A stretch of DNA of 29,976 nt from a virus, in IMG/VR virus record IMGVR_UViG_3300023281_001323, positions 1 to 29,976 of that record. One strand, given 5' to 3'. Made by a program: the position numbers and the translations under genes. The notes beneath the pieces are model-generated. The model was given only the letters and a program-made list of their open reading frames with translations. It was not told the origin of the DNA and searched no databases. This document shows positions 1,437-29,976 of the stretch, one piece after another; position 1 is the stretch's first letter; every line of letters starts with the position of its first letter.

Positions 1437-1697
1437 TTACGAGGTACCCATCCAATTTTTTCGTAGTGAGCCCATAATTCCCTCGAGGATGCCGGGGAGC
1501 GTCTGAGGGTCGCCGTATTGCGAAATCGGCTCGGCGTGCATAAGAGGTAGAGGTACCTCGTACTCGGCTGCTGCGAGGCTCTCGTGAGCCATACGGACTT
1601 GCTCGTCGGTGGCAGCGTCCGGGCCGGAACGTATATGGCTCACCACCCCACGATCGGTCGTGAACGAGGTACCGCAACTAGGGCATCGGGCTTTCAT
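1437..1697 (-). CDS. Small zinc-finger-like protein, 86 aa
   Basis: N-terminal CPSCG with Cys5/Cys8 and a following His21 in a helix-like SHIRSG segment resembles the first part of a C2H2 finger, although a clear fourth ligand is missing in the usual place. The rest has no recognised domain. The start is fixed by an ATGA overlap (1694-1697) with the stop of the methyltransferase gene; the longer open frame upstream only runs antiframe through that gene. It is the last gene before the non-coding region. It may be a DNA-binding accessory of the methyltransferase, which is inferred only from coupling. Confidence 0.7.
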   Translation of the reverse strand: MKARCPSCGTSFTTDRGVVSHIRSGPDAATDEQVRMAHESLAAAEYEVPLPLMHAEPISQYGDPQTLPGILEGIMGSLRKNWMGTS

Positions 1698-3187: not shown

Positions 3188-3508
3188 TCACGACAGCCGT
3201 TTGAGAATCGCCTCAATCGTCCCGTCGTGCCAATCCAGCTCAGTCCAGAGATAGACCTCGACTCTGCCGCCTTGGAGTTCACCAAACCAGTCGGTCTGGT
3301 GGTCCGATAGTTTGCGGCCCTTCACCTTCAACTCGGCGAATATCACCCTACCTGTACGCGCCATGCAAAGGTCGGGGAACCCTGGGTCACCCGATATCGC
3401 GGTCGACCACTGGCCGCTGGCGTTCTTGGATGGGCGGTCGTGGTGGACCCGCCACTTGTATAGCGTGGCGAGTTCGAGGATCGCCGATTGGAGTTCCGCC
3501 TCTCTCAT
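3188..3508 (-). CDS. VRR-NUC family nuclease, 106 aa
   Basis: Short stand-alone VRR-NUC domain, a PD-(D/E)xK-type nuclease found in many phages and also in FAN1. The visible motif residues are Glu5 in the first helix, the GFPDL motif with Asp46, the AELKVK motif with Glu59 and Lys61, and Gln71 in the following helix. The full small-domain length is present. Stand-alone members can cut branched DNA such as Holliday junctions, which would fit the adjacent annealing protein. The start is the ATG at 3508 in an ATGA overlap with the upstream gene; a GTG three codons earlier is less likely. Confidence 0.85.
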   Translation of the reverse strand: MREAELQSAILELATLYKWRVHHDRPSKNASGQWSTAISGDPGFPDLCMARTGRVIFAELKVKGRKLSDHQTDWFGELQGGRVEVYLWTELDWHDGTIEAILKRLS

Positions 3509-4308
3509 ACGCCGCACATACCTTCACATTCGGCGTCCCAACCGTCGAGAGCCATCTGACCGTGATCCTCCACGGTCGCGAGGTTGACCTCAGAGAGAGG
3601 GATTCGTTTTTGGTGAAGGTATGCGTTGCCGAGTAGCTCCTGGCGCGCTTCGGTCGCCTTCGGATAGCCCTTACGGATCGCTGCGTCGAACGCGACGGCG
3701 TCGGCGAACTCAGAGTCTGAGAGATCCCGCCAGGTGTCATCCGAGCGGAACGGACAGCCGACACAGGCCGAGCGGGGCGGTTCTGGATAGCCATTGTCGA
3801 CCATCCAGAGTTTGCAATCGTGTCGAGTCATCCGTAGGTCGACAAGTGGGTAATCGAAGTGCTGCCACTTCGCCTTGGAATCGCGCATTCGGCGAACCTC
3901 GTCGAGAGAGATCCCGACTACCTGCTGGACTGTTTTCCCTCGTAAGTTCCCACCGACCCGGTCCCGTATCTCAGCGGTGATCGGCCCGATTTTGTATTCG
4001 TTGGTGCATTGACGGCGGGAGATCCCTGGTGACCCATCGGGGTTCTTGATATACAACGGCATCGACGCGAACCGTTTGCTGGGGTCGAGAGCGTCGGATC
4101 GGATGTCGCCGCCCGACACCTTCACAATCTCGATTGGTGTTATCCCCTCGAGGAACTCGAGCCATTCGTAAACCGCAGCGGGTTCCCATCCGGTATCAGC
4201 GAATATCGCGACATCGGCGGGTTCGATCTCACCAGAACCCATCATTAGAAGAACGGTGGACGATTGGACACCAGCGCCGAGAGAGAGAACTCGTAGGTCA
4301 CGTTTCAT
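3505..4308 (-). CDS. PAPS reductase-like (PP-loop ATPase) protein
   Basis: Member of the adenine-nucleotide alpha-hydrolase superfamily often labelled phosphoadenosine phosphosulfate reductase-like. The PP-loop variant SLGAGVQSS is at residues 9-17, followed by an FADTGWE segment typical of this group. Later come a CTNEYKI motif, a CVGCPF motif and a final CEGMC; these cysteines could bind a metal or Fe-S cluster. Phage members are common, but their substrate is mostly unknown. They are related to DndC-type enzymes of DNA phosphorothioation and to tRNA thiolation enzymes, so a role in nucleic-acid sulfur chemistry is possible. No other sulfate-assimilation gene is nearby, which argues against classical PAPS reduction. 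Coupled by ATGA to the ERF gene. Confidence 0.8.
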   Translation of the reverse strand: MKRDLRVLSLGAGVQSSTVLLMMGSGEIEPADVAIFADTGWEPAAVYEWLEFLEGITPIEIVKVSGGDIRSDALDPSKRFASMPLYIKNPDGSPGISRRQCTNEYKIGPITAEIRDRVGGNLRGKTVQQVVGISLDEVRRMRDSKAKWQHFDYPLVDLRMTRHDCKLWMVDNGYPEPPRSACVGCPFRSDDTWRDLSDSEFADAVAFDAAIRKGYPKATEARQELLGNAYLHQKRIPLSEVNLATVEDHGQMALDGWDAECEGMCGV

Positions 4309-5147
4309 GCGTTGACCAGCTCGTCGATCGCCCCGCCCGCCGCGAACAGATCATCGACTTCACCGAACACGGCCATCGACCAGGCGAACCGGCGATCGGC
4401 GTTCTTGCCCGACATTACGTTCCCGCCCTGGCAACCGTTCTCGGTGCATTCGATGAACGCGGTGTTCTTCTGGCCCCGGTGGACAAGGTTGAGTGATCCC
4501 CAGTCGTAGGGACAGACCTGGGGGAACGATCCGTCCCCCTGGCGGGCGGCTTCGGTCATCTGGAGCGGCGGGAGTGGAACGCCCTTGGTCACCGTGACCT
4601 CCTGTTCAACTCGAGGTGCTGGCTTCGCGGGTTTGCGTACTGCTGGCCGCGGCGCGGGGGTACCGTCGTCGGCTTCGGCGTGTGGAGAGAACGAATCTGC
4701 GTCGGGCTCATCGGTCGGCGATAGGAATAGTTGCAACAGGCACATCTTGAGAGCCTGTGAGAGCGCCTGGTTGCCCGCCTTGTCCTGGTAATCGGTTGAT
4801 AGGCCGTAGGACTCAGTAACCAGCTCGTCGACGGGTCCACGGAACGTGTACTCGACCACGAGAGCAACGGTCATCGGGTGTTGGCCCTTCTGGTTCGGGT
4901 CGATCCTCATTTCTGAGTTGACGATCCGCTGGGTGATGATGACGCCCCGGCCCAGGATCGCGGTGTGGACCGCGCCCAGGACTTGCTCGATCCCACGGAA
5001 CGAATACTTCTGGTGAGTGTTCTTCCCCTCTTTACGGATCGCCCCGACCTCGAGCGCCGCTTCGATCATCAGTTCGCGGGTGGGTTTCGCTTTGGGTTTG
5101 GTGGCGGCTGGCTTCTTGGTGGCGGGCTTGGCCTTGGGGTCAGGCAT
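4305..5147 (-). CDS. erf: ERF-family single-strand annealing protein
   Basis: Promotes annealing of complementary single strands in phage recombination and genome circularisation. After a Lys/Pro/Ala-rich N terminus (residues 1-24) the ERF core runs to about residue 151: YSFRG at 48-52 and the family signature at about 115-151, with YQDKAGNQALSQALK and then FLSPTDEPDAD. A Pro/Ala linker joins a C-terminal part with Cys212, Cys234 and Cys239, perhaps a zinc-binding or partner-binding tail not present in the short P22 protein. The start overlaps the end of the 88-aa gene by 8 bases. The following PP-loop and VRR-NUC genes form a recombination/DNA-processing module with it. Confidence 0.88.
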   Translation of the reverse strand: MPDPKAKPATKKPAATKPKAKPTRELMIEAALEVGAIRKEGKNTHQKYSFRGIEQVLGAVHTAILGRGVIITQRIVNSEMRIDPNQKGQHPMTVALVVEYTFRGPVDELVTESYGLSTDYQDKAGNQALSQALKMCLLQLFLSPTDEPDADSFSPHAEADDGTPAPRPAVRKPAKPAPRVEQEVTVTKGVPLPPLQMTEAARQGDGSFPQVCPYDWGSLNLVHRGQKNTAFIECTENGCQGGNVMSGKNADRRFAWSMAVFGEVDDLFAAGGAIDELVNA

Positions 5148-12598: not shown

Positions 12599-13495
12599 CT
12601 ACCGTCCTAGCCCTTGCGCGGCGGTTATGGCGTTGGTAGTCCCAATGGCGTAGGCGCCCTCGACGGCTTGGCGGTCGATCTCTGAGCAGTACCCGGAGTA
12701 TGCGAACTGGCCGTTGACGTCGATCGCGGCGGGGACGAAACATCCGATCCGACCACAGAGCGCCGGCTTACAGAACTTGAATCCCTTCTGGATGTACCGC
12801 TGGGTGGCGTCATAGAGCGACCCACCAAAGTTGTTGACCTGATCTTCGAGCATGACCTGGACGATGTGTGGTCCCTTGGGGTTGACTAGTTTCATCGTCC
12901 GCGAGTTGCCCTTGCGAGCGGAGTGCTCGGCCTGGAGCTGTTTGGCCTGCTCGATGACCGAAGCCTGAGTTGCCTCGACACGGCCCAACCCTTGCGAGAG
13001 GCGTTCCTTGTTGATGTCACGCAACTCCATCTGCGCCATGTCGAACAAGGCTTCCTCACCGAAATGCTCGATGACGGCTTCGGGGGAGTTCCAGTTCCAC
13101 GAGGACACGTCGAACGTCGGGTCGAGCCGATCGCGTTCGTCCTCGAGTTCGGCGTTGCGGGCTTCGAGCTGCGCGTTGCGGGCTTCGAGCCTCTCGTTCT
13201 CGGTGGTGACCTGAGAAAGTTCTGCGGCCTGGGAAGTGGTGATCTCCCCTGCGGCGTCGATGTCGGTGACGGTCAAACCTACGTCGTGGATGATGACAGT
13301 TTCGGTGACCTCGACGCTGTCCGCGTGGGCGGCGGCCGTGGCGGTGGTGCCGGCCTTGGTCCACTCGCGGGCGCGGCGCTGGACTGTCTTGGTGGTACAC
13401 CCCAGGAACTCAGCGATCGCCTTCTGGGATTTGCCGTCGTCCTCGTACATTTTGCGGGCGTGGTCCCACAGAGCATCAGTGATTTGAGTAGCCAT
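12599..13495 (-). CDS. HTH / coiled-coil / four-cysteine protein, 298 aa
   Basis: Three-part protein. Residues 6-46 are a resolvase-like helix-turn-helix (SQKAIAEFLGCTTKTVQRRAREW); residues about 95-125 are a short tandem-repeat coiled coil (ERLEARNAQLEARNAELEDE); residues 200-298 form a separate domain with Cys242, Cys247, Cys252 and Cys270, possibly one zinc site. DNA-binding head plus coiled coil is the plan of small terminase subunits, but those normally lie next to the large subunit, and this gene lies between capsid and tail genes. A late regulator or DNA-binding virion protein is equally possible. It has no overlap with its upstream neighbour. Confidence 0.7.
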   Translation of the reverse strand: MATQITDALWDHARKMYEDDGKSQKAIAEFLGCTTKTVQRRAREWTKAGTTATAAAHADSVEVTETVIIHDVGLTVTDIDAAGEITTSQAAELSQVTTENERLEARNAQLEARNAELEDERDRLDPTFDVSSWNWNSPEAVIEHFGEEALFDMAQMELRDINKERLSQGLGRVEATQASVIEQAKQLQAEHSARKGNSRTMKLVNPKGPHIVQVMLEDQVNNFGGSLYDATQRYIQKGFKFCKPALCGRIGCFVPAAIDVNGQFAYSGYCSEIDRQAVEGAYAIGTTNAITAAQGLGR

Positions 13496-14034: not shown

Positions 14035-14913
14035 CTATACGTCGGTGATGATTGAAACGCCGCGGTCGTCGTCGATCTCGCCCACGGAATAGGCGGCGGT
14101 TGCCACCCACTCTGTAGCACGCAGCGAAGCGTCCCGGTCTGTTTCCAGACGCGAGGCGTACTTGCCAACGTGTGCGAGAGCCGCACCCTTCTCGAACATT
14201 CCGCCGCCGTAGTCGGCAGCAGCGTTGAGAGTTCCGACCGTGTTGTTCACGATCACTTCCACGCCGTACATCATGCCTGCATCACCGTCACCGGGGATAC
14301 CACCCATGTCGTTCGTGGCCTGACGTGCGGAGGTTCCGGTTGTCGAGGCTGCTGACACGGTCGAACCGACCGAAGTGACCAAGTCCTCGAGCTGCTGCGG
14401 GGCGAGCCCAGCGCAGAGAGGGGCGTTCACGTCGGTCGCTCGCAGGGTTGTGATCGCGTTGCGGAACTGGAGTTCGGTCAGGTCAACACCTGTCGTCCCT
14501 ACGAAGTTCGAGAACGCGCCCCACAGGAGCGTGATGTCAGTTGTCATCTTGTCACGAATGGCGAGTCCAAGGTCGCGACCGTACTGGCCGGCGCCACCGA
14601 AGATGTTCGACATCGTGTTCAGGTCTGTCGGGGTCACCATTACACCTATTTCACCAACGGTCAGAGTGATCTGAGTTGGTGTGTAAGTGGTGTTGGTGAT
14701 GTCTGTGCCGTCCGCTACCGCGGCTGCGGCAATGACCGGCGGCTTGGGGAACCGCTGGGAGTCGGAAGGGAGTCCGGCTAGGGACGCCCGACGCATTGCT
14801 CCCAGGACGTTCGCCAAGGGGTGCAACGCCGAGATGAGGTTCTCACGATTGAGGATGTAATCCTCGGAGAAGATCGCCTCGGTCGTAGCGAATGTGATAT
14901 TCGCAGTTGCCAT
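14035..14913 (-). CDS. Major capsid protein
   Basis: 292 residues with the composition of a capsid protein: Ala/Thr/Gly-rich, few Cys, no catalytic motifs. Characteristic segments are an N-terminal arm (about residues 1-65), ITLTVGEIGVMVTPTDL, a helical spine-like region (GRDLGLAIRDKMTTDITLLWGAF) and a C-terminal end SVGEIDDDRGVSIITDV. It directly follows a scaffold-like gene and has a strong ribosome site (AGGAGG), as expected for the most abundant virion protein. The HK97 fold is assumed from the class of phage, not seen. Confidence 0.82.
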   Translation of the reverse strand: MATANITFATTEAIFSEDYILNRENLISALHPLANVLGAMRRASLAGLPSDSQRFPKPPVIAAAAVADGTDITNTTYTPTQITLTVGEIGVMVTPTDLNTMSNIFGGAGQYGRDLGLAIRDKMTTDITLLWGAFSNFVGTTGVDLTELQFRNAITTLRATDVNAPLCAGLAPQQLEDLVTSVGSTVSAASTTGTSARQATNDMGGIPGDGDAGMMYGVEVIVNNTVGTLNAAADYGGGMFEKGAALAHVGKYASRLETDRDASLRATEWVATAAYSVGEIDDDRGVSIITDV

Positions 14914-14936: not shown

Positions 14937-15539
14937 CTACAACTTCCGTCCCCCACGGTTCTCGACCATTGCGAGTTCCTCTGGGGACAAAGGTGTGGCT
15001 GCTACACGCCCCGCACGCCATGCCTCACCGAACTCGTCCTGAGTGGCCGATTCGATGAAAGCCTTGTGTTCCGCGGTGTTCGGCTGGAGAACATTCTCCC
15101 TCGGGGGAGGACCCTGCCCACCAGGATTGGGACCGCGGACAAGACCCGGTGTGGCGTCTGTCACGTTCTCTCCTGATGTCGGCTGGGTAGTGATCCCGTC
15201 TGCCGGTGGAGCAACAACCGCGGGCGTTACAAGAGATCCGAACCTCGCTTCGATCTGCTGCTCGAGCGCTTCGACACTCTCAAATGTCGCTTCGCCGAGA
15301 GAGTTCGTAATGAGGTCGGACCAGTTCTTGAACTGGTCGGGGTCGTTTACTTCCTTCGCGCGTAGCCAAGACTCCGCATGTCTGAGAACGCCTGAGCTTT
15401 TCACAGCTACCTCGAGTTCCCCGCTTTTGGCGAGAGCCTCGTCACGTTCGGTTTTCATGCGGTCGAATGCCTCTTGTGAGACTGTTCCGCTGGCTGGGTC
15501 GGGTGGGGCGTTTGCTGGTTCTGCCACTTGCTGCTCCAT
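14937..15539 (-). CDS. Scaffold protein
   Basis: Acidic, helical, Pro/Gly-rich 200-aa protein immediately before the capsid gene. Coiled-coil-like helices (FDRMKTERDEALAKSGELEV), a disordered Pro/Gly middle and a basic C-terminal end (ENRGGRKL) match the plan of head scaffolds, whose basic C terminus contacts the capsid protein. No strong Shine-Dalgarno sequence is seen before the ATG, which is unusual here. Function rests on position and composition. Confidence 0.75.
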   Translation of the reverse strand: MEQQVAEPANAPPDPASGTVSQEAFDRMKTERDEALAKSGELEVAVKSSGVLRHAESWLRAKEVNDPDQFKNWSDLITNSLGEATFESVEALEQQIEARFGSLVTPAVVAPPADGITTQPTSGENVTDATPGLVRGPNPGGQGPPPRENVLQPNTAEHKAFIESATQDEFGEAWRAGRVAATPLSPEELAMVENRGGRKL

Positions 15540-15613: not shown

Positions 15614-15663
15614 GGCGGGCAGCTCCGTCCCCTTGCAAGGGGGACTCTACTCTATTGCCCGCC
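15614..15663 (-). ncRNA. Structured RNA element before the scaffold gene
   Basis: Outer 8-bp arms GGCGGGCA (15614-15621) and TGCCCGCC (15656-15663) enclose an inner hairpin with arms GTCCCC and GGGGAC (15627-15632, 15640-15645) around CTTGCAAGG-type symmetry. The outer arm overlaps the stop region of the 497-aa gene. The 112-base gap (15540-15651) is one of the few real gaps in the operon. With no T-tract, it is more likely a processing, stability or attenuating structure than a terminator. Confidence 0.4.
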
Positions 15664-17145
15664 GAAACCTTGGAGTTGTAGACCTTGTCTGCCGATCGAC
15701 GCCTGGGCGCCACCGAACCCGGACGACGCCGCACGACGGTCACGCTCGAAACGGGCGAGCCGGTTGAGGATCTCACCAGACCCTGTCCCGGTGGGGGATT
15801 CCTCCCCAAAGAACACCGACACGAGATCCTCGTCGGTGATGTCGAACTTGCCGATGTCGAGTTCGTGGCGGTTACGGACAGCGGTGAGGGCGAGTTCCTG
15901 GGCGAGTTTCGCATATGATTCTGGGGTGCGGAACCCGGACACGTCGTCGATGATGTCGACCAGGCCGTCGATGTCGACACCGTCGAACCCTGCCTCGGAC
16001 AAGGCGATCGACGCCGACGCTGTGTTGAGCGCCTCGGTGATATCGAGCGGCGCCGAGTCGGTCATGACCTGGAGCAGCCCGAGCTCGTCGGTCGGGTCGA
16101 ACCCTGACGCCACCAGGACATCGTTGAGTTGCACTAGAGCGTTCGGGTTGTGGGTGATCTGCTGCTCGAGTTCCAACGCTGCGGCGAACGTCGCCGATGT
16201 CCAACCGTTCGCGAGGACGTCGCCGATGTCCTGGTTGGAAAGGGATTCTCCTGGGCGGTAACGGCGTATGGCTCCGAGAAGGGCCGTCTCCTCGCTGAGA
16301 TACTCGTCGACCGCCGCCTCGATAGTCGTATCGCCCAGGAGAAAGGTGTCGACGCCTGGGAACCGGGCGCCGAATGCGTCGGTCTTGGCGAGTTCGGTCC
16401 AGAGTCGGTTCGAGGACCAACCTTCCTGGGTGGAGAACACGATCAGTTTCTTCGCTTCTTCCGAACCCATAATCCACGCGGGAGGCGCGGTCAGGCCCAG
16501 GGCGCTGATCTCTCGACCGATCTGAGAGTCGAGGGTTTCGGTCTGGCCGATCACTTCGGACACCGACCCCAGCGAAATTGCGCCGGCTGCGTCGAACTGT
16601 GCCTGGGTTAGAACCCGCGACGTGCTGAAAGCGTTGGCGCCTTCGGGGAATAGCTCGTCGAATGTGAGCTGGTCGCCGATCTCAAAAGTGACAAGCGAAC
16701 CCAGGACGTTGTAGCGGAGGTAGTAGATCGCGTCGGTAGCGGACCCGGTCGGCGAATCCACCCGCAGCAGGGTCGCCCCGTCCGGGATGACAGTGTCGAG
16801 TCGATGTTCTGGGAGTTCGCCGACGATGCGCGCTAGGGACACGACAAGGTTGTCGAGGCTTCTTCCTTCGGTTACTTCGCCGGCGATCCTGGCGGCGTCG
16901 TCTGGACCCTTGTTGAACTCCGGGTTCTGAGCGAACGCCTCATCGAGCAGACCCTGGAGGATCTCGGTGTCGCCGCCGCCCGCGGCTGACTGATCGGCGA
17001 GAGTCTGGATACGGTCCTCGGGTAGTTCCCCATCGGCCCCGGTGAAGTCGATCCCCGCTCGAGCGAGGATGTCGAAGAACGATGTGAGTTCCTCGATCGA
17101 GAGAGTCCCGTCATTGTCGATGAATGATTCTTGGCCTACGGTCAC
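15652..17145 (-). CDS. Candidate ejection/internal virion protein, 497 aa
   Basis: Large acidic helical protein of unknown family. Residues 8-19 (FIDNDGTLSIEE) look like an EF-hand loop lacking the first Asp, so calcium binding is doubtful. The end is Gly/Gln-rich (RQGLQLQGFGGQ). It lies between the giant protein group and the scaffold gene and is coupled to the 363-aa gene by a GTGA junction with a GTG start. Together with its two upstream neighbours it probably forms a set of internal head or ejection proteins; this is inferred from size and context. Confidence 0.6.
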   Translation of the reverse strand: MTVGQESFIDNDGTLSIEELTSFFDILARAGIDFTGADGELPEDRIQTLADQSAAGGGDTEILQGLLDEAFAQNPEFNKGPDDAARIAGEVTEGRSLDNLVVSLARIVGELPEHRLDTVIPDGATLLRVDSPTGSATDAIYYLRYNVLGSLVTFEIGDQLTFDELFPEGANAFSTSRVLTQAQFDAAGAISLGSVSEVIGQTETLDSQIGREISALGLTAPPAWIMGSEEAKKLIVFSTQEGWSSNRLWTELAKTDAFGARFPGVDTFLLGDTTIEAAVDEYLSEETALLGAIRRYRPGESLSNQDIGDVLANGWTSATFAAALELEQQITHNPNALVQLNDVLVASGFDPTDELGLLQVMTDSAPLDITEALNTASASIALSEAGFDGVDIDGLVDIIDDVSGFRTPESYAKLAQELALTAVRNRHELDIGKFDITDEDLVSVFFGEESPTGTGSGEILNRLARFERDRRAASSGFGGAQASIGRQGLQLQGFGGQ

Positions 17146-18233
17146 GAGTACGCCCCTCTACCAAGCCCAGAGATCGTCTGAGCGTATCTTTGAGCGATGG
17201 ATGGCCCCGACGCAGCGTGAACAGGTCGGGTGTTAGCGATCCTCTGAGCCTGCCCCGCAGCGGACGCTCCTGATCGTAGAGTCGTCTCCGTCTCGCGGGC
17301 TTGTTGGCCCTGAGTCAATTGTGGGAACGAACCGACAACCGCTCGAGTCTGAGCGACGTAATCGCGGGTCGATACCGTTGCTGGTTTCTTGGAATACATC
17401 GACTTGAACCGGCCCGTCCCTTCGATGCGTCCTTGTATGAATGTCTCGAAATCGAGGTTGCCGCCTTTGTTACGCCAGAACCCGTTGGCTTCCTTCTTGT
17501 AGTCCTCGACCCACTGGGCGATCTGCGCGTCGTCGGGTTCGAGTAGGAAGTAGCGGTACTGGTCGGTCGCTCCTGCGGTGAGCTGGTCGGTGTCGAACGC
17601 CCGGTTCGCACGTCCGGTCCCGGTCTTAGGTTTCTTCTGGGGGAGGATGTCGGCGAGGTTTATCATCGGGAGCGACGAGTTGAACAGGACTAGCCCGTCT
17701 GGTTCGTCCTCTGTCGGCTTGCTGCGGACAACGTCGCCGCCGCCCGCGAACCTACTGCCGGTACCAGCTCTAGTGTCCGCGGTGAGTCCTGTGAGGAAGT
17801 CGCGGCGCATGATCGTCATCGAGCCGTCCTCGTTGACGAGGTTGAACGCCGGCGGGAGGATGTTGTCCTGGAGTACGGGTAGCCACGCTGCGCCTGATAC
17901 GAACCCGTTGCTGGCCCAGAGCTGGTCGGGGGTGACGTTGTAGTTGTACGTCGTGTCTTTCCCCGTCCCTTCGATGTCGAGGTACTCGAGTCCCCACGAG
18001 TTGAGCCAGTCGTGGACTAGGGCCGGACTCGCTCCGGTCATCCCTACGACCTGTTGTTTGACCCACTCGAAGTCGGCGGGGTTGGCTTGTGAGTAGGTCG
18101 GTTGCGCTGGGACCTTGTCGTCGTCGCTGCCAGTGTCGGTGTCACCGTCGTCAGTACCAGTGTCGTCGCCGATGAGTCCACCGGGATTGAACCCGTCGCC
18201 GTCAAGAAAGAAATCGAATCGGAATCCACCCAT
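17142..18233 (-). CDS. Candidate internal virion protein, 363 aa
   Basis: The N-terminal 45 residues are Gly/Asp-rich and very acidic (DDTGTDDGDTDTGSDDD), the rest mixed, with a basic, Ala/Gln/Arg-rich C terminus from about residue 300. No family recognised. Its ATG overlaps the stop of the giant gene as TGATG and its stop overlaps the next start, so the three proteins are made in a coupled way and may act as one complex. Confidence 0.6.
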   Translation of the reverse strand: MGGFRFDFFLDGDGFNPGGLIGDDTGTDDGDTDTGSDDDKVPAQPTYSQANPADFEWVKQQVVGMTGASPALVHDWLNSWGLEYLDIEGTGKDTTYNYNVTPDQLWASNGFVSGAAWLPVLQDNILPPAFNLVNEDGSMTIMRRDFLTGLTADTRAGTGSRFAGGGDVVRSKPTEDEPDGLVLFNSSLPMINLADILPQKKPKTGTGRANRAFDTDQLTAGATDQYRYFLLEPDDAQIAQWVEDYKKEANGFWRNKGGNLDFETFIQGRIEGTGRFKSMYSKKPATVSTRDYVAQTRAVVGSFPQLTQGQQARETETTLRSGASAAGQAQRIANTRPVHAASGPSIAQRYAQTISGLGRGAYS

Positions 18234-21200
18234 CAGGTACTACTCCCTTCGAGTGCGGGGGTCGTGGACTTTCCAGCGTTGAGGATACCCTGGAGGTCGA
18301 TGACATCGCCGCCAAGTTGACCACCAGTCACGTTCGACGCGGTGAAGTATTCGGGTACCCAGATCGGAATCCCGTCGACATACATCCACACTTTGATCCG
18401 CTGCTTCGACGTGTACTGCTGGACCCGTCCGTACTGGTCGCCGTCGAACATGATGAAGTTGATCGTCTCGGCGCCTTGCAGCAGCTTCTCGAGGTTGGAT
18501 AGAGCTTGCTTGCCTCCTGGTTCGGCCCACTCCGGGGTGTTGATCCCAACGAGACGCAGCTCGACGAACCCGTCTGAGGTCCGCAACGACAGAGTGTCGC
18601 CGTCGAGGATGGACATATCGCCTGTGACTAGGTCGTTGGCGTCGGCGGGAATGTTGAACTCGATCCGATCCGAACCCAGCTTCGGCGGGTCGGGGGGTAC
18701 CCAGTTGAGGTCGCCGAGCGCGTAACGGAAGTAGCGGTCGTAGTCGCCGACACCGATAGTCCCTGCGTCGATAGCCTCGCGCATCCCCACGCGGCCGTGT
18801 TCCTTGAACTCCTCGGGCCAGTCGGAAATGTACTCGATCCCTAGGTTATCTTCGGCGTACTTCGACATGGCCTCAATGTCGTCCATCACCGACCCGGACC
18901 CTTGTAGGGCAGTAGCGGCAGCGTTCTCCATGAACCCCAGATCGAATGTCGAGGACGCCAGGGTGTCCATCTGGTCGCCGAACCAGTCCCGCCACTCCTG
19001 GCCGGTCATCTTCACCTGATCGAACTGAGTGTTGGGAGGTCCGCCACCAGGAAGTTCGACACTACTCGTCGGTGGGTGAATTCCCATCTGGTCCATCAGT
19101 TGAATGGCCGTCGCGTTGGTGAGAGCGAACTGATCCTCGGCGACGTCTTTGGTGAGCTTGATCGAGTAGTTGTAGTTGGTCATATCTGAGAACGCCCAGC
19201 GGAGGAACTTGCGTCCCGCCTGGTGGACACGTTCGGAAGCATCGGCGGACCATTCACCCTCCGGGCGGTAGCCGATCTGACCTAGCTCGTACATCTCTCG
19301 TTTGTCGTCGCGTCCAGCTTGACCCTGAGCTAGAGGTTTGGAATTGAACCGCCCGTCGATCGTGCAGTACGACGTTGAGAAGTAGTTGCCTGCTGCGTCG
19401 GGCATACAGGCGGTGGTTGAGACGAGGTTGGTTCCCATCGCCGGGTCGATCAGCAACGACAGAGTCATCAAGTCCAGACCGGGGTATTCCCGTCCGACGA
19501 AGTAGTCCTCGGACTTCCTTATCCCCTCAGAACCTGGGATGGTCGCATCGCTGAGCCGGTCGAATACGACCGTGTTGAGGATGTCGTAGAGATCCCACGC
19601 TTCCTTCTCAGAGATCGACCCGTTGTTCCACTTGGTCCACAGTCCCTCGAAGGCTTCACCGTCGCCGAATAGATCCTCGAGGTCGTGGGAGTTGAGAACC
19701 CCCGCCGATTTGAGAACGTCGAGTAGTCCGCCCTCGTCGCCTGGTTTGAGCAGCGCCGAGTAGAAGTCGAGGTTGGATAGGTCACGGTCCCGATATCCGA
19801 CACCAGGGAATAAGTGCTGGACACGGTCGGCGGCTTCACGACGCCAGAGGTCGTCGCGGACGGTGGTACCTGTCGACGAGATCCACTTGTCGTGTTCCTC
19901 GGTGCCAGGGAGCATCGTCCAAACCGAATTACGCATCTCGAGTCCGACCTCGTTTTTCATGACTGTGCCAGTACCGAACGGTTCGGACCTCGACGAGATC
20001 GCCTGGGTCATCTGCTGGCCCCAGTTACCGGGGAGGGACGGGGCGATAGCGAGGCCGGCGGCGGTGACCACCGAACGGATCGACCGTGACGAGTCGGGGA
20101 ATACGAAGTCGTCGATGTCGTCGAACCCGAGATTCCCGCCGACGTTGTCACGGAAGTAGGAGAACGACGGCCAGATCCGCTCGACGAAATCTGACCCTGG
20201 GATCTCGGCGTAACGATCCGCCGCCCACCACGGCAACGCCACAGCGAGTCCTGGTTGCGGCGAGATGTTCATCATGAACTGCGTCCCCTTGCGAAGTGGG
20301 AGGAACGTGAAAGAGTTCATCAGCGCGCCTGGACCCCAGAACCCGCCGTCGTATCCTTCGGCGGACGCCCCTGTCATAGCTTCGGAAAGGTGAGCCATCT
20401 TCGCCACGAGCCGCACGTTGATCGGTTGGCGCTCGAGTAGCTCGACACCCTTGGCGGTGGCCCGTTGAATCCCCGAACCCTGCGACCAGGCGTACAGCTT
20501 CTCTCGTGAGACTCTGGTGGCGTTACCGTCGAACATCCAACGCATCCAGCGGGCGCCGAAGTCAGCTTGGGCTCGCACGAACGGCAACGCCAGAGGGTTG
20601 TCGAGTTTGTTCCCGGCGAGTGAGCGGGTCACCGTCGAGTACATGAGGTCGTCGGCTTTCTGCGCGGCGTAAGCTCGAGCGGTCTGTTCGGCCATCTCGT
20701 GAGTCTTGAACCCGCGGCCCAGCAGATCCCGAACCCTGGGGTCGTTGGTGCGGATCAGCGCCGCGGCGTGGTCGAGGTCGCGGGCGATCTTCTTAGAGAC
20801 AAGGTAGGACGGCTCCAACAGAATCCCGGCTTCGGTCCACGCGTCGACGAGAACCTTGCGGTACGGCTCGTAGAACTGGTCGAACATGACCCCACCGGCC
20901 CGCTGCTGTGGCCGTGTCCAGAACGAGTTCATCATCCCGTCGAGCCATGAACCCTTCGGGGTGTTGACGTCGGGACCGACCGTGTACTTGAGGTTCTGGA
21001 GCAGTTCGGCGTCGGCGCTGCGAGATATCTTGGGGCCTGTCCCGGTGGCTGCTTCGATGAGACGTTGACGTAGGGAGTCCTGGAGTTCGGCACCGTCGAC
21101 TATGTCGTCGACCCAGCGGCCGATGACTTGGTCGAGGTAGCCGTCGATCCCCACAATGTCGTCGGGGGAGTTGATCGCCAGCTTGCCGACGTCGTCGCCG

Positions 21201-24200
21201 AAGGTGAGTTCAGTGGCGTCGTACTTGGCCTGGCCTTTCGTTTTCCACCAGACCCGAAGTTCGGCGTCGGTGATAAGCCCGGCCTGTCGTTTCGCCCACA
21301 TCTGAGTGAGTTCGTCCTGAGCCAACGACCCTTGTAGGAATCGTTCGGCGTTGGCGCGGAACTCTGCCGTCCCATGCTTCGTGCCGGGGGACGGGTTGTC
21401 CATGACGTGCCAGCCGCTACCAGACGCCGTCGCGAGGGTGTCGCCGGCGTTGGCGCCGTATCGGGCGGCTTCGTCGGACAGCCCGCCGAACAGGTCGTGC
21501 ATGAACCTGCCGTCTGGGTGGAATAGCGACCCGCGGACTACCGCGCCTGCCGATGAGTCGAGCGCAGCCTTGAACCCTTTGAGTCCGCCGAGTTCTTGGA
21601 ATAGGCCCATCGCCTCGTCGAGCCGGCCCTTGAACCCGGTGATCGGATTGCCGAGAAGGTTGACGGCCCAGAACTTGCGTAGCGTTCCGACGATCGAGCG
21701 GAACCGTTCCTTCTGGACTAGCTCGCGGTACTTCTGCAACGCCCGAGGGTTGTTCTTGAGGTTCTGGTAGGCGGTGACTTCCCATGACGACGCGGGCGCC
21801 TCGTGGAAGGTAGACCTGCGGAGAACCTCGAGTTCACGGAGTTCCTTTTCGATGTCGGCAGCGTCGTCAAAGTTGTGGGTGAGCCCGGTCGTTCTCGACA
21901 CAGAGTCGTCGAGGGTGATCGTGCGGGGGCCTTCGACCTTCCTTGTGTTGGTGACGGGCGTCCAGTCGTAGGTGGTGATCCCTGACTCGTTGACTCCCTT
22001 TACTTCCAACCCGAGCCGGTCGCCCTGTTCCGCCCAGAACTGGTCCATCCAGAGTCGCTGCTCGATGAACAACTCTGGTTCGGCGATCGCCTTCTCGATA
22101 CGAGCGAGCTGAGATTTGATCTTGTTGAGTTGCTGCTCGAGGTCGGAGCGCGGCGCGCCCGCTTCGGTGATCTCTCTGATCCGGGTGCCGAGAGCGTCAC
22201 GTTTGGCCTGCAACGCGGTGCGGGCGGCGTCGTCCATCGTCGTCGCCAACTGGCGGTCGTAAGCGTGGAGAGCGACCCTGGCGTCCTCGAGCGCTTGACC
22301 CATGACCTTGCCGGTGAGCCGTGGGACGGTGGCGCCGAGGTCGCGGATCTGCTGGGCGATCGCCTGCTGCGCCTGCTCGAGTGCGTGTTTCTGAGCGACC
22401 GAACCGTTGCGGGCGTCGATGAACGACCCTAGGTGACGGAACGCCGTGTCGGGGTCGTCGGGGAACATCGTAAAGAGCATCGCCTTGATGTCGTCGACGG
22501 AGTTCGTCGAACCGAAACGGAACGCCCGATCGACCGATCGGTTAGTGAAAGCCCGGATAGCTCGAACCTTGACGGCGTCGGGAATGGAATCGAACCGGGC
22601 GAACATCTGAGCGGCGCCGAGAGCGGTCTGGCGGGTGGTGGCGTGACCCATTGACGATGGAATCCAGGTGCCTCCGTAGGCGGGGAGGGCGTTCATGGCG
22701 ATCGACTCTGCGACGTCGCGGGTGAGCGTCCCTGCGCGGTGGGCGTTGATGATTGCCAGGGTTGCCTTGTCGCCGAAGTTCTGGAGGGCGCCTAGCGATC
22801 CGAGAATCCGTTCGGTGTTCCCTGATCCCAGCGAGTCGAGAAGGTATCGCGCTCCACGCGTCCGCATGACCATCGGCCCGAACTTCTGGGAGCGGAGCAT
22901 CGTTTTCATGAACACCTGGCGGGTCGCCCCACCAGCGAATATGGCGTTGGTGGGGTCGAAGATGATCGACGCGGTGACGTCGGCCCATTCTTTCAACCCG
23001 CCTTCCAGGTGGAAGTAGTCGCCGACAGTGTCCGACTGGTCCTCTTGGAACATGGCGTTCCAGTTCTCGGTTACGTCGTCATCGTTGAACACCGCGCCGA
23101 CGACGTTCACCCCGTCGAGGATGGCGTCGACTGTCTGCACGCCGATCCACTGGGTGATTTCCTCCCACTGTTCGAGAGCCGAGAATCCCTTCTCGACGCC
23201 AGCGTCCCAGATCCGGGATATTTGAGAAGCCTTGTCGTCGTCGGTTGACGACATGATCTGTTCGATGATGTCGCCGGTGAGCATGTTCTCCAGCTCGAGG
23301 CGCATCTCGGTCGGGTCGAACGCGCCCTGGTCGGCGGCGGACATGGCAAGGTCGACGGCTTGGCCTGCGTCGAGTTGACGGCCTTCCTCGGCTGAGAGCC
23401 CTGCGAACTGGGTGCCGACAATGCCGATCATCTGAGCGTCGGTGAAGTTCCCGTCGACATACATCTCGTGGACGTCGGACTCTGTTGGAAGTACCTGTTC
23501 GTCGTTGACGAGCATTATCTCCATCGCGTCCAACGCCGGCGAATACTGACTGAAGGCGCCTCCTTCTTCGGCGTCGCGTGTCTTGTTGCCGATGAACTCA
23601 AAGGTGGCGCCGAGCTGCGTCTGAGAGCCAGGTATGTCGTCCTGGAGTACGACCTCATGTTTGAGTCCAGCGATCGCCAGGACCGCGGTAGTGAACGCCT
23701 CGATGTCGTTGGTGATCGTCGTGTCGTCGTCGACCTCAATGAAGAACTCTTTGACCGATCCGTCCTCAAGGGTGATATTCCCTGCGAGGATTCCAGCGTC
23801 GAACACCCAGACGCCAGGGCGATCGGACAACGACGATCGAAGCTCACCGAAATGTTCGGCGGTGAGCGGATCGAACCCGCTGAGTTCTATGTCCCGGTTC
23901 TGTTCCATGTCGGGGAACATCTGGGCGTTGGCTTCACGCCACACCTCTCGCTTCGGCATCGTCTGTTCGGTCCATTCGCCACCCAGCAGATCGGCTTGGG
24001 CGGCGGTGTTATCGAGCCAGAGCTTCTCGGCGCCGATGATTAGCTGCTCCTGGCGTACCGACTCGACGAGTAGCTCCAGGTTGGAGGGCATGTGGTTCGG
24101 GTCGGCGCGCATTGCCCGGACGTCGCTGTCGGTGTACGCCAGGGCCGTCTCGAAGTCGGTGGCGAGGACGTCGAGAACCTCTGGGTAGGCGTCGGCGATA

Positions 24201-24616
24201 TTGAGAATGTGGTCGGTGATCGCCTGGACGAGACTGTCGTTGGAACCGGACAGGTGGAACGTGACGATCGCTTCGGCCCGGAACGCATCTTCTTCGGTGT
24301 AGAGAGATCCTCGGGGAGCGAACGGCAGACCGTCGCCGGCGCGGGCGATGGCCGGATCGAAGAAGCGGTTGTCCAACCCGGTGTCGGTGGGTCCGACAGC
24401 GAACGTCGGGTTCCCTGCCGCGTCGAACAGATTCGGGTCGCGACCGTGACCCGCTGGCGGGTCGAGCGACCTCGGTCCCTCTAGTCGAGACGGGCCTGCT
24501 CGTCCGTCGTCTGACGGTGGGACGGTCGGCGGCGGGGCGGGCGCGGGCTTGTGTGGGGCGCTAGCTGCTTTCCCCGGATCGTCTTGAAGGGGTCGCCGTT
24601 CTCTTGGGTCTGGCAT
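18233..24616 (-). CDS. Giant virion-associated protein with C-terminal SNase-like domain, 2127 aa
   Basis: Residues 1-75 are Pro-rich and disordered. About 76-1990 is mostly helical with no recognised enzyme; a long coiled coil lies at about 740-860. Near 1998-2093 is a staphylococcal-nuclease (thermonuclease) domain: DGDTL (Asp2005, Asp2007), ELRLVGINTPE (Arg2021, Asn2026, Thr2027, Glu2029) and DQYGR (Arg2064). These match the nuclease residues Asp19/21, Arg35, position 40, Thr41, Glu43 and Arg87; only Asp40 is replaced by Asn, a change also seen in natural relatives. The size and position after the portal suit an internal or ejected virion protein. The nuclease could degrade host DNA or trim DNA during entry. 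It starts in a TGATG overlap with the 113-aa gene. Confidence 0.85.
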   Translation of the reverse strand: MPDPRERRPLQDDPGKAASAPHKPAPAPPPTVPPSDDGRAGPSRLEGPRSLDPPAGHGRDPNLFDAAGNPTFAVGPTDTGLDNRFFDPAIARAGDGLPFAPRGSLYTEEDAFRAEAIVTFHLSGSNDSLVQAITDHILNIADAYPEVLDVLATDFETALAYTDSDVRAMRADPNHMPSNLELLVESVRQEQLIIGAEKLWLDNTAAQADLLGGEWTEQTMPKREVWREANAQMFPDMEQNRDIELSGFDPLTAEHFGELRSSLSDRPGVWVFDAGILAGNITLEDGSVKEFFIEVDDDTTITNDIEAFTTAVLAIAGLKHEVVLQDDIPGSQTQLGATFEFIGNKTRDAEEGGAFSQYSPALDAMEIMLVNDEQVLPTESDVHEMYVDGNFTDAQMIGIVGTQFAGLSAEEGRQLDAGQAVDLAMSAADQGAFDPTEMRLELENMLTGDIIEQIMSSTDDDKASQISRIWDAGVEKGFSALEQWEEITQWIGVQTVDAILDGVNVVGAVFNDDDVTENWNAMFQEDQSDTVGDYFHLEGGLKEWADVTASIIFDPTNAIFAGGATRQVFMKTMLRSQKFGPMVMRTRGARYLLDSLGSGNTERILGSLGALQNFGDKATLAIINAHRAGTLTRDVAESIAMNALPAYGGTWIPSSMGHATTRQTALGAAQMFARFDSIPDAVKVRAIRAFTNRSVDRAFRFGSTNSVDDIKAMLFTMFPDDPDTAFRHLGSFIDARNGSVAQKHALEQAQQAIAQQIRDLGATVPRLTGKVMGQALEDARVALHAYDRQLATTMDDAARTALQAKRDALGTRIREITEAGAPRSDLEQQLNKIKSQLARIEKAIAEPELFIEQRLWMDQFWAEQGDRLGLEVKGVNESGITTYDWTPVTNTRKVEGPRTITLDDSVSRTTGLTHNFDDAADIEKELRELEVLRRSTFHEAPASSWEVTAYQNLKNNPRALQKYRELVQKERFRSIVGTLRKFWAVNLLGNPITGFKGRLDEAMGLFQELGGLKGFKAALDSSAGAVVRGSLFHPDGRFMHDLFGGLSDEAARYGANAGDTLATASGSGWHVMDNPSPGTKHGTAEFRANAERFLQGSLAQDELTQMWAKRQAGLITDAELRVWWKTKGQAKYDATELTFGDDVGKLAINSPDDIVGIDGYLDQVIGRWVDDIVDGAELQDSLRQRLIEAATGTGPKISRSADAELLQNLKYTVGPDVNTPKGSWLDGMMNSFWTRPQQRAGGVMFDQFYEPYRKVLVDAWTEAGILLEPSYLVSKKIARDLDHAAALIRTNDPRVRDLLGRGFKTHEMAEQTARAYAAQKADDLMYSTVTRSLAGNKLDNPLALPFVRAQADFGARWMRWMFDGNATRVSREKLYAWSQGSGIQRATAKGVELLERQPINVRLVAKMAHLSEAMTGASAEGYDGGFWGPGALMNSFTFLPLRKGTQFMMNISPQPGLAVALPWWAADRYAEIPGSDFVERIWPSFSYFRDNVGGNLGFDDIDDFVFPDSSRSIRSVVTAAGLAIAPSLPGNWGQQMTQAISSRSEPFGTGTVMKNEVGLEMRNSVWTMLPGTEEHDKWISSTGTTVRDDLWRREAADRVQHLFPGVGYRDRDLSNLDFYSALLKPGDEGGLLDVLKSAGVLNSHDLEDLFGDGEAFEGLWTKWNNGSISEKEAWDLYDILNTVVFDRLSDATIPGSEGIRKSEDYFVGREYPGLDLMTLSLLIDPAMGTNLVSTTACMPDAAGNYFSTSYCTIDGRFNSKPLAQGQAGRDDKREMYELGQIGYRPEGEWSADASERVHQAGRKFLRWAFSDMTNYNYSIKLTKDVAEDQFALTNATAIQLMDQMGIHPPTSSVELPGGGPPNTQFDQVKMTGQEWRDWFGDQMDTLASSTFDLGFMENAAATALQGSGSVMDDIEAMSKYAEDNLGIEYISDWPEEFKEHGRVGMREAIDAGTIGVGDYDRYFRYALGDLNWVPPDPPKLGSDRIEFNIPADANDLVTGDMSILDGDTLSLRTSDGFVELRLVGINTPEWAEPGGKQALSNLEKLLQGAETINFIMFDGDQYGRVQQYTSKQRIKVWMYVDGIPIWVPEYFTASNVTGGQLGGDVIDLQGILNAGKSTTPALEGSST
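18330..18630 (-). other. SNase-like nuclease domain of the giant protein
   Basis: Domain region inside the 2127-aa gene (residues about 1997-2096). It has the full order of thermonuclease motifs, ending with WMYVDGIPIWVPEYF in place of the usual final strand-helix. Roughly 30 residues follow to the end of the protein. See the parent gene for residues. Confidence 0.8.
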
Positions 24617-24957
24617 CAGCGCCGCGTTCTAAGAAGGTTCATTCGTTGGCCGACAGCACGCATGAAAGCACTCGGTGATTGAGTGAGCCGGTCCTCGAGC
24701 TGCTGGACGGGTTGGGGCGTACCAGCGATACCGGGTTGGGTGAGGTTGGGTAGCTGGTCGGGGGTGACCTGTTGGAGAATATCGAACGGCCGCTGTGGCG
24801 CGACAGGCGACGTCTGGCCGGCGCCAGCGGCGAACCCCTGGGCGGGCGGTTGCGCGGTCGATGACACAGGAACGCCACCAGACTGACGGGCGGCGACGTT
24901 CTCCTGGCGGGCGCCATACGGCAACCCGGTCGGCACGAGGTCGGTTGATGAGGGCAT
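24616..24957 (-). CDS. Pro/Gln-rich protein, 113 aa
   Basis: Low-complexity Ala/Pro/Gln/Thr-rich protein with a short basic C-terminal helix (FMRAVGQRMNLLRTRR); no folded domain expected in the first 80 residues. The ATG follows the portal stop with no gap and its stop overlaps the giant gene's start. It may be a portal-binding linker or a minor head protein; no family recognised. Confidence 0.65.
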   Translation of the reverse strand: MPSSTDLVPTGLPYGARQENVAARQSGGVPVSSTAQPPAQGFAAGAGQTSPVAPQRPFDILQQVTPDQLPNLTQPGIAGTPQPVQQLEDRLTQSPSAFMRAVGQRMNLLRTRR

Positions 24958-26826: not shown

Positions 26827-28976
26827 TGCGGTTGTCCTGCTTGCTCGAGGAGCTTCACTTGTAATTCTGCCATAGATAGGGGCTCACGTCTGGACTCCTT
26901 GACTCGCTGGTTCGTATTGTGCCGCGCCTTGGCAGCGTCATACGCCCGCTGGATCGACACCGGAACAGCAATGTGGGGACGGCCTGGGCCACGCGCCCGA
27001 ACGCCGTGACCGAAGATTTCCCGGACTTTGATATATCCCACCCACGCGGCGAGACACCCATCGTCGGCTTCGTGACCGGGCGAGCCGGGCTTCTTACGAT
27101 TATCGGACTGGCGGTCCCACGCCTTGAAATGGGCCTTGAGCGCCTTGGTGATTTTACGGTCCTCTGGGGTGCGGGTGGGGAACTTGATAATCATCCCTCG
27201 CATGTCACCAACCATCTGAGCCGGTCCGAGCGTGTCCGACGATCGGTTCTGCCAGTGGGTTTTGTGGCGGTACACGTTGACGTTCATCCGTCTGATGAGG
27301 GCTTGCATGAGGACGTCGTCGAGTTCTCCCTCGTGACGGTTGACCTCGTAGCAGAACCAGATCGGGTTCCACCGGGTGATCGGCTGCTCGATCAGAACCT
27401 TCTTGATCCCGTCCGAGCCGAGCTTCGCCACGATCTCCACGTCGATGACTGTCGCCGTGTTGAGTTCACGATCGACACCCCACGCGACGTAAGCGGCACC
27501 GAACTTGCGGGCCGGATCGCTGCCGGTGACGACAACTTCACCAGGCATACGAACCCCGTAGGAACGGGTGGGATCGTCACACAGATCCAATACTTCGTCG
27601 GTGAAGTCGGCGACGTCGAACGACGGAACCCGGATCTGCTGGTGGGTTGCCTGATATGAGATGTACTGGTCGGTACCGGGTTCGCCACGCAACTCGAGCT
27701 GACCTTCGATGCGTTCCTCGGCCATCGGCGCGAGGTCGATGAGTTCTGCATCGTTGAGCTCGTGGACGTGGTGAGTCTCGAGGACGTCCTCTGGGGTGCG
27801 GACGATGATCTGGGATCGGAAGGGGAACCGTTCCTCCCAGAACGACCGTTCGTGTTCGGACCCTTGGTCGAGGATGGCGGGGTGGCGGACGATGGCGACA
27901 CCGTTGCGGTAGCGGGTGACGAACTCGTCCGAGTAGAGGACCCCGGTGCCTTCGGGTACCCATTCTTCCATGAGAGCCTCGTAGTTGTTCTCAACGTCGA
28001 GAAGCGTCCCCAGGAGGAACTTGCGGCCACGACCATCGAGGCGCGACTTGAGGGTTCCACGGACCATGCCGAGCTGCTTGGCGCGCAAGTCGGGGGACAA
28101 CTGGTTCTCTCTCGTGAACATATCCGACAGGACAGCGGTACGGATACGCTGCCCATAGATCGACCCGTCGACGCCTGTAGCCCAGAGATCGGGGTCGGCT
28201 TCGTTGGTCGAGCCACCCACGAAATAGCACTGGGTCTGAGTCCACTGGAGCTGGGGGATCTTGGTCCCGTCCGGGTAGATCATCCCCTTCACCCACTTGA
28301 ACGGACCCCAGAGGGCGATCGGGTTGATCGTCGGGATCTGCCCGCCGGGAGTTTCGGCCGGCTGGTAGAGGTAGGTGCGTTCGTCGGTGAGGTAGTTGAC
28401 GATCCGCTGGAGTTTCTTCTTGCCTTCCTTCTCAGATTCGGTGATGTAGGCGGTGCGGTTCTCGCGGGTGAAGTCGGCGCATTTGAGATGGACGATGGCG
28501 TCCGATGCGGTCGTGTCCTTGCCTGCGCCAGTAGGACAGAAGTACATGACGGTGTGGTTGGTCTTGTTCTCCCACTCGTTGATGGCGTCCTGGTGGTGAG
28601 GTTGGGACGGCCTACCGAATGCGTCCCAGCGGAACTGCTCGAGTCCTGGGACTTCTGGCCGTTCGGCGTCGGGGTCAACGACGAGCCCGAGGGCGGATTT
28701 GCGGAACAGCGACGCTGATTCTCTGCCCTGCTCGCGGGCGTACTCGTTGGCGTCGACCAGGGTCCGGACCTGGGTGTCGTACAGCTCGTAGGTCGAACGC
28801 CAGTTCTCGATCGTCCGTTTCGTGACTCCTGCGGTTTCGGCTGCTCGAGCGAGCGACCCGCCAGCTTTGAGCGATTGGAGAACCTTGAGCATTCCCTGGG
28901 ACGTGCGTTCCTGGAGTCCTGGGAAGTTCCCGATGAACCTGAAGTCCATGTCCGGACCACGTTTGAGATCGGTCAT
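26823..28976 (-). CDS. terL: Large terminase subunit with N-terminal HTH, 717 aa
   Basis: DNA-packaging motor. Residues about 40-65 form a helix-turn-helix (SLARAAETAGVTKRTIENW). The ATPase has Walker A CPTGAGKDT (147-155), a possible Walker B hydrophobic strand ending in Asp285 (TAVLSD) and a coupling-like LLGTLLD (321-327). The RNase-H-type nuclease has Asp487 (VVTGSDPARKFG), Glu544 (FCYEVN) and Asp638/639 (HEADDGCLAAW). At 717 residues it is longer than the common 450-600, and the built-in HTH could replace DNA recognition by a small subunit. No separate small terminase gene is visible next to it. Coupled by ATGA to both neighbours. Confidence 0.92.
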   Translation of the reverse strand: MTDLKRGPDMDFRFIGNFPGLQERTSQGMLKVLQSLKAGGSLARAAETAGVTKRTIENWRSTYELYDTQVRTLVDANEYAREQGRESASLFRKSALGLVVDPDAERPEVPGLEQFRWDAFGRPSQPHHQDAINEWENKTNHTVMYFCPTGAGKDTTASDAIVHLKCADFTRENRTAYITESEKEGKKKLQRIVNYLTDERTYLYQPAETPGGQIPTINPIALWGPFKWVKGMIYPDGTKIPQLQWTQTQCYFVGGSTNEADPDLWATGVDGSIYGQRIRTAVLSDMFTRENQLSPDLRAKQLGMVRGTLKSRLDGRGRKFLLGTLLDVENNYEALMEEWVPEGTGVLYSDEFVTRYRNGVAIVRHPAILDQGSEHERSFWEERFPFRSQIIVRTPEDVLETHHVHELNDAELIDLAPMAEERIEGQLELRGEPGTDQYISYQATHQQIRVPSFDVADFTDEVLDLCDDPTRSYGVRMPGEVVVTGSDPARKFGAAYVAWGVDRELNTATVIDVEIVAKLGSDGIKKVLIEQPITRWNPIWFCYEVNRHEGELDDVLMQALIRRMNVNVYRHKTHWQNRSSDTLGPAQMVGDMRGMIIKFPTRTPEDRKITKALKAHFKAWDRQSDNRKKPGSPGHEADDGCLAAWVGYIKVREIFGHGVRARGPGRPHIAVPVSIQRAYDAAKARHNTNQRVKESRREPLSMAELQVKLLEQAGQPQ

Positions 28977-29976
28977 AGGTCACCCCCAGCCGGCCCTCGA
29001 TACCCCGCGGCTTGGAGGTCGGCGTTGATTGCTGCGGTAAGGGTAGCCGTCGACGCTCCCGAGTTCGCGGCCCACGCCGCGGCTACGGACTGTTGGACGT
29101 GAAGCATCCCGGCCTTGTCACCGTTGAAACGGAACCTGGCCGACACCTTCTCGAAGTCGTTCTTGTCGAGCCACGAGTTCATCACCGAACGCTTCGGCCC
29201 GGCTCCCAGCGACAGCGAGTCCGATGCGAGGTTGCGGAAGAAGTGGCCTGATTCCTTGGCGTAGATCGTGACGAGGATGACGCCGGCGATGGGCGTGTGG
29301 ATCGTGAAAAGGAGGTCAGTGGTGTCGGGAGTGACCGTCGTCCCGGTAGCGACCGACACCGCGGGAACGGTGAACTCGAGGGCGATGACGCCAGGTGTCA
29401 CGGTGGCGGACAACGCCAGGACTGTGACCTGGGGAATCGTGAACGCCAGGGCGATCTCGGCGGGAGTACGGGTTGATCCGATCGCGATCGAGGGAGCGTC
29501 GACGGTGAACGCCAGAGCGGTCGCGGCGGGGGTCACTGTGGCGTCGGTCTGAGTGACAGCGGTCGCCGCGGGGATCGTCAGGGTGATCGGTGTTGCCGCG
29601 GGCGCCACGCTCGAGCCGGCGCCGATGGTGGGAGCGTCGACCGTGAACGCCAGGGCGATGACGCCTGGGGAGGCGGTGTCGTTGGTCGACGTGACGATCG
29701 TCACCGCGGGGACCGTGAACGCCAGGGCGGTCACCGCGGGGGAGGCGGTGTCGGACGTTCCAGCGACAACCGTGACGGTGGGGACGGTGAGGGTGATAGG
29801 TGTTGACGCTGGCGAGGCCGTCCACCCAGTCGCGATCGTCGGGGCGTCGACGGTGAACGCCATGGCGATCGTGTCGGGGAGCGCCGAGATATTCGAGGCG
29901 GCGACGATCGTCGGGACGGGGATCGTGAGGGTGATGGGTGTCGCCGCGGGGTTGACCGTGGCGTTCGATTCGGTGG
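28973..29976 (-). CDS. Tandem-repeat structural protein, 5' end outside the window
   Basis: At least 333 residues, open through the right edge; an internal ATG at 29863 is not taken as the start because the repeat pattern continues beyond it. About ten repeats of 22-24 residues run from the edge to about 29270, each with the pattern [TS]P....[LA].FT[VI]..P..., alternating FTVDAPTI and ITLTIP forms. Each unit probably gives a beta strand pair of a fibrous or decoration domain. The remaining 100 residues form a mixed domain with HFFRNLASD and FEKVSARFRFNGDKAG. No family recognised. Its stop overlaps the terminase ATG as ATGA. Confidence 0.7.
   Translation of the reverse strand, partial: TESNATVNPAATPITLTIPVPTIVAASNISALPDTIAMAFTVDAPTIATGWTASPASTPITLTVPTVTVVAGTSDTASPAVTALAFTVPAVTIVTSTNDTASPGVIALAFTVDAPTIGAGSSVAPAATPITLTIPAATAVTQTDATVTPAATALAFTVDAPSIAIGSTRTPAEIALAFTIPQVTVLALSATVTPGVIALEFTVPAVSVATGTTVTPDTTDLLFTIHTPIAGVILVTIYAKESGHFFRNLASDSLSLGAGPKRSVMNSWLDKNDFEKVSARFRFNGDKAGMLHVQQSVAAAWAANSGASTATLTAAINADLQAAGYRGPAGGDL
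29290..29976. repeat. Tandem repeats of about 66-72 bp
   Basis: In-frame DNA repeats encoding the 22-24-residue units; similar words such as GTGAACGCCAGGGCG and ACGGTGAACGCCA recur on the plus strand. Copy number in this gene may vary between related phages. The repeats continue to the window edge. Confidence 0.75.

Follow-up and report, generated by a model that had tools for sequence, protein, structure and literature searches.

A staphylococcal nuclease domain at the C-terminus of a giant, putative ejection protein encoded in a viral head module

A giant protein encoded between the portal and capsid genes of a virus ends in a staphylococcal nuclease (SNase) domain. For the last approximately 140 residues this identity was confirmed by sequence profiles and by the predicted fold. 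The analysed stretch of DNA, called the window in the following, is the IMG/VR record IMGVR_UViG_3300023281_001323 with 29,976 bases, in which the main genes are encoded by the minus strand (Table 1). By synteny and by a weak but specific profile match to one short motif, the giant protein appears to be a very divergent, remote member of a PHROG_10618-like family. Tentatively, we favour the explanation that it is a giant ejection (internal virion) protein of a podovirus, whose SNase domain would be delivered into the host and cut host nucleic acid early. Among the matches listed, the fusion of an SNase with a giant protein is present in one genome only. As far as the literature was searched, no description of an SNase on a giant ejection protein was found.

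Table 1 Features of the giant gene and of the surrounding head module
Feature	Position	Strand	Remarks
Large terminase, 717 aa	26823..28976	-	N-terminal small-terminase-like HTH, residues 25-82
Portal protein, 622 aa	24958..26826	-	homologue of Beephvirinae portals (E 1e-12)
113-aa ORF	24616..24957	-	between portal and giant gene; small ORFs at the same place in relatives
Giant protein, 2127 aa	18233..24616	-	proposed as an ejection (internal virion) protein; SNase domain at the C-terminus
Second family segment	21593..21688	-	residues 977-1008; colinear, alone non-significant (hhalign, E about 0.3)
Conserved giant-family motif ...LPFVRAQADFGARWMRWMF	20525..20701	-	residues 1306-1364; 14.4 bits, best null 4.7
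Proline-rich junction VPPDPPK	18680..18700	-	residues 1973-1979, immediately N-terminal to the SNase domain
SNase (thermonuclease) domain	18236..18649	-	residues 1990-2127; profile-aligned core 2001-2072 = 18401-18616
363-aa protein	17142..18233	-	in relatives, the second gene of the giant-gene block has this position
497-aa protein	15652..17145	-	position matches the relatives' peptidase/glycosylase genes
200-aa protein	14937..15539	-	scaffold by position only (before capsid gene)
Major capsid protein	14035..14913	-	

The thermonuclease domain

A C-terminal thermonuclease domain had been proposed in a first-pass annotation made from the letters of the window, and it is supported by an SNase profile, by PHROG_452, by sequence matches in the PDB and by the predicted fold. 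This profile combined 11 further SNases, viral and free-standing, without the window's own domain, and scored that domain at 54.9 bits (E 4.4e-19); the best of 300 locally shuffled copies reached 4.3 bits. PHROG_452 ('endonuclease') matched residues 2002-2065 with E 1.7e-4. In a phmmer search of the PDB the top matches were all staphylococcal thermonuclease (E 1e-3), and the catalytic positions were aligned. The match to PF00565 expected in the annotation was found over profile positions 2-52 with 15.9 bits (E 3.5e-4), but it lies under the curated cut-off of 21 bits. With the whole 2127-aa protein, nothing was listed by hmmscan against Pfam.

Structure prediction, suggested in the same annotation, pointed to an OB fold of the SNase type. 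In the AlphaFold model, obtained from a 14-row alignment, strands and helices follow one another as in SNase; its confidence is modest (pLDDT 54). The best 50 PDB matches of this model in Foldseek were all staphylococcal nuclease (E 9e-5), and VIA-align gave a Z of 7.8 over 96 residues at 3.1 A. The segment after the R87 equivalent is divergent, and the C-terminal third of the fold was modelled with low confidence.

The residues named beforehand, D2005, D2007, R2021, N2026 (corresponding to Asp40), T2027, E2029 and R2064, were all numbered correctly. In the PDB alignment the equivalents of D19, D21, R35, T41, E43 and R87 coincide with the thermonuclease, and D40 is replaced by Asn. Thus, five of the six positions formed by the catalytic R35, E43 and R87 and the metal ligands D21, D40 and T41 are exact (R2021, E2029, R2064, D2007 and T2027); the sixth, D40, is N2026. 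A loss of catalysis, leaving an OB-fold tail that binds nucleic acid or is purely structural, is rather unlikely. It would agree with the Asn at one metal ligand and with the poorly conserved C-terminal helices, and it would avoid danger to the packaged DNA. However, R35, E43, R87, D21 and T41 are all kept despite the high divergence. Asn40 is also present in free-standing phage SNases, among which the motif GINTPE is common, and it was found in at least 92 SNases (92 of the 93 loci fetched), a count that indicates commonness and not frequency since the search pattern favours N. As proof of inactivity, Asn40 was rejected because it is common in free-standing SNases.

The giant gene and its relatives

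The giant gene is a single unbroken ORF with an ATG start. Its limits as one 2127-aa gene had been given correctly, without a strand. GC (0.59) and GC3 (0.76) of the SNase part match those of the remainder of the gene; a contig artefact or a recent chimera was rejected on the grounds of this even composition and of the continuous reading frame. The stop codon overlaps the start of the next gene (TGATG). The protein is strongly acidic with a net charge of -116, which is unexpected in a DNA binder and counts against the favoured explanation. An Rfam scan and a defence-system search gave no match.

From right to left, the window contains an incomplete repeat-rich protein, the large terminase, the portal, the 113-aa ORF, the giant gene and the genes of the 363-aa and 497-aa proteins. 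Next come the probable scaffold, the major capsid protein and other structural genes, then an endolysin-like protein in which a peptidoglycan-binding domain is present, and finally a block of recombination and metabolism genes. The portal shows 24-28% identity to portals of Streptomyces podoviruses (Beephvirinae), and the terminase is weakly related to the Beephvirinae terminases. One relative, Abafar, was identified as a podovirus by electron microscopy (PMC11536984). In the Beephvirinae the portal is followed by a few small ORFs, a gene for about 1650 aa, a gene for about 275 aa, an NlpC/P60 peptidase, an SLT glycosylase, tRNAs and the head genes; a giant ORF after the portal is present in the Streptomyces phages Immanuel3, FlowerPower and Manuel. 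In the window, too, the giant gene lies after a homologous portal and before the head genes. The earlier description of a giant head-module protein encoded after the portal is supported.

A portal profile search of IMG/VR yielded more than 500 relatives, of which 80 were kept. Those among the 80 with enough downstream DNA carry an ORF of 1500-1880 aa directly after the portal. Giants of this size at this place are very common in the IMG/VR portal group and are without any Pfam domain. The closest capsid relative among the matches listed, L112, shows 40% identity and has a 2120-aa giant gene before the capsid gene; this giant is a clear family member (E 3e-16) and carries no SNase. In a capsid-protein search with the window and L112 sequences, only L112 was found. 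Close relatives of the window's giant protein, of its SNase domain or of its terminase were not found in IMG/VR.

A family profile was built from about 53 giant proteins of the relatives (1514-2120 aa). Residues 1306-1364 of the window's giant protein matched it with 14.4 bits, compared with at most 1.8 bits for 300 shuffles, 4.7 bits for 953 other ORFs (899 cellular ORFs and the other ORFs of the window) and 4.2 bits for reversed members. The signal was obtained with the family profile only; BLAST, phmmer and hhalign against the Beephvirinae or ct2KA10 giants gave no match. PHROG_10618, which the ct2KA10 giant matches with E 3e-13, did not list the window's giant. In common with the giants of this type (Immanuel3 gp09, FlowerPower gp9, Manuel gp10 and ct2KA10), the gene follows the portal and small ORFs, precedes a gene of about 270-380 aa, has the head genes on the same strand and shares one central motif. 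In contrast to these relatives of 1514-2120 aa, which have no Pfam domain, its core is very divergent and an SNase is attached.

In 48 IMG/VR relatives and in Immanuel3 no match to PF00565 was detected, and a Pfam scan of 47 relatives' giants revealed no domain and hence no nuclease. An SNase is present in ct2KA10 as a separate 145-aa protein and not on the giant. With the SNase family (PF00565 and PHROG_452) the window's domain shares the OB-type fold and the catalytic residues. The other SNases among the viral and cellular matches listed stand alone or belong to proteins no longer than 638 aa, whereas the window's domain ends a 2127-aa phage head-module protein.

Possible functions of the nuclease

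Podoviruses keep their ejection proteins at the portal and release them together with the DNA; enzyme domains travel in this manner on T7 gp16 and on the N4-type virion RNA polymerase (vRNAP) (PMC8954989, PMC10925440). The C-terminal part of T7 gp16 reaches the cytoplasm (PMC8954989), and the N4-type vRNAP gp71 shares an operon with gp72 and gp73 (PMC10925440). The window's giant resembles these systems (N4/DEV vRNAP and T7 gp16 with its lytic transglycosylase) in a giant protein, a three-gene block and an enzyme domain. Unlike them it shows no sequence relation, and its cargo is a nuclease instead of an RNA polymerase or a cell-wall enzyme. An ejection protein would fit the probable remote membership in the Beephvirinae-type giant family, and an ejection module the NlpC/P60 and SLT cell-wall domains in the relatives' downstream genes. 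No sequence match was found between the 363-aa and 497-aa proteins and their syntenic counterparts in the relatives, and neither a peptidase nor a glycosylase domain was detected in the 497-aa protein with Pfam and PHROGs.

By analogy with T7 gp16 and the N4-type vRNAP, we infer presence in the virion and ejection for the giant protein. It would be assembled inside the head near the portal and exit through the tail, together with the DNA or before it, and the SNase, joined to its C-terminus by the proline-rich stretch, would thereby enter the host. There it could cut the chromosome, plasmids and RNA at the start of infection. An attack on host DNA, plasmids or prophages, as put forward in the first-pass annotation, is conceivable. 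Activity of the domain, host nucleic acid as its target and restraint in the virion are likewise inferred. While packed, the nuclease might be kept silent because its metal is missing, because it folds only once ejected, or because it is tethered at a distance from the DNA. In its strongest form, with an active nonspecific nuclease in the ejection machinery, packed with the phage's own genome, silent until entry and cutting host nucleic acid before phage gene expression, the proposal is doubtful.

Calcium at millimolar level is scarce in the cytoplasm. The classic SNase depends on Ca2+ at about 0.5-1 mM (PMC5035972), and this need combined with the scarcity argues against nuclease action inside the host. 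Mg2+-dependent SNases exist, however, so that the metal cannot be assumed (PMC3585158). As an artificial means of destroying viral genomes, SNase has been fused to capsid proteins and employed in Ca2+-rich medium (PMC5035972). An active copy beside packed DNA would therefore be risky, and a natural fusion would have to be under restraint, depend on a different metal, reach its fold only once ejected, or lack activity.

The strict Ca2+ dependence would also fit an SNase that works outside the cytoplasm, with its activity confined to the Ca2+-rich cell surface or wall during entry, where it would clear extracellular DNA or trim DNA in the envelope, and silent in the host cytoplasm. The nearest cellular relatives, free-standing and presumably secreted SNases of Nocardioides and Acidimicrobiia, are in line with this. 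We regard it as unlikely, as the virion would meet the same Ca2+ before infection, with its own DNA endangered, and the metal is uncertain as stated above.

Processing of phage DNA by trimming of ends or by action at the portal while DNA is packaged or ejected, or recycling of host nucleotides before assembly, is quite improbable. The giant gene belongs to the head module adjoining the portal, and ct2KA10, a relative from the same group, retains its free-standing SNase. However, the large terminase has an apparent nuclease site of its own, with D487, E544 and D639 invariant in a five-way alignment, and the sampled relatives do without an SNase on the giant.

A polymorphic-toxin-like effector of the MuF or polyvalent type, directed against competitors and considered in the first-pass annotation, is very improbable: a C-terminal nuclease on a post-portal head-module protein is the layout of MuF toxins (PMC5576092), but these belong to temperate phages and mostly have a small ORF next (PMC5576092), whereas the next gene here encodes 363 aa at a syntenic position, no integrase was found among the window ORFs scanned, and a pattern search of 85,000 prokaryote genomes gave no relative of the portal. 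MuF and polyvalent identity were rejected. No match to PF04233 or PF06152 was obtained in Pfam up to E 0.1, nor a MuF match in PHROGs; no polyvalent-protein domain was found in Pfam or PHROGs, and a single domain was detected where several are required. Thus, the window shares with both groups a C-terminal effector domain and genes near the portal, but it lacks their domains, a small following immunity-type ORF and temperate signs. SNase is not mentioned in the main text of the MuF-toxin paper (PMC5576092) or of the polyvalent-protein paper.

Injected phage enzymes already known include RNA polymerase, cell-wall lysins and MuF toxins. If the SNase of the preferred entry-delivered ejection protein is active, its storage as a nonspecific nuclease beside the virion's own DNA is a puzzle. 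The fusion gives a first functional handle on a large family of giants without domains, which is widespread in environmental podoviruses.

Further genes of the window

The N-terminal HTH of the large terminase points to a possible fusion of small and large terminase. The kin of the capsid protein are Pelagibacter phages with siphovirus-type tail genes (HTVC112P) and those of the portal are Beephvirinae podoviruses, which suggests a mosaic head module. No clear tape-measure protein was detected in the window (best E 0.018), in line with the podovirus reading. A 298-aa protein (12599-13495, minus strand), encoded within the structural genes that follow the capsid gene, carries a transposase/sigma-like HTH at its N-terminus and probably a coiled coil.

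The protein placed before the terminase gene (28973-29974, minus strand) is open at the contig end and contains a 72-base tandem repeat (29639-29790) in two or more copies, encoding ASPAVTALAFTVPAVTIVT-like units. An 863-aa protein of L112 has weakly similar stretches in its C-terminus; the window's protein is possibly an adhesin or fibre. Furthermore, a DNA N4/N6-methyltransferase (1694-2743, minus strand), a PAPS-reductase-like protein (phrog_424; 3505-4308, minus strand) and an ERF annealing protein (4305-5147) are encoded in the window.
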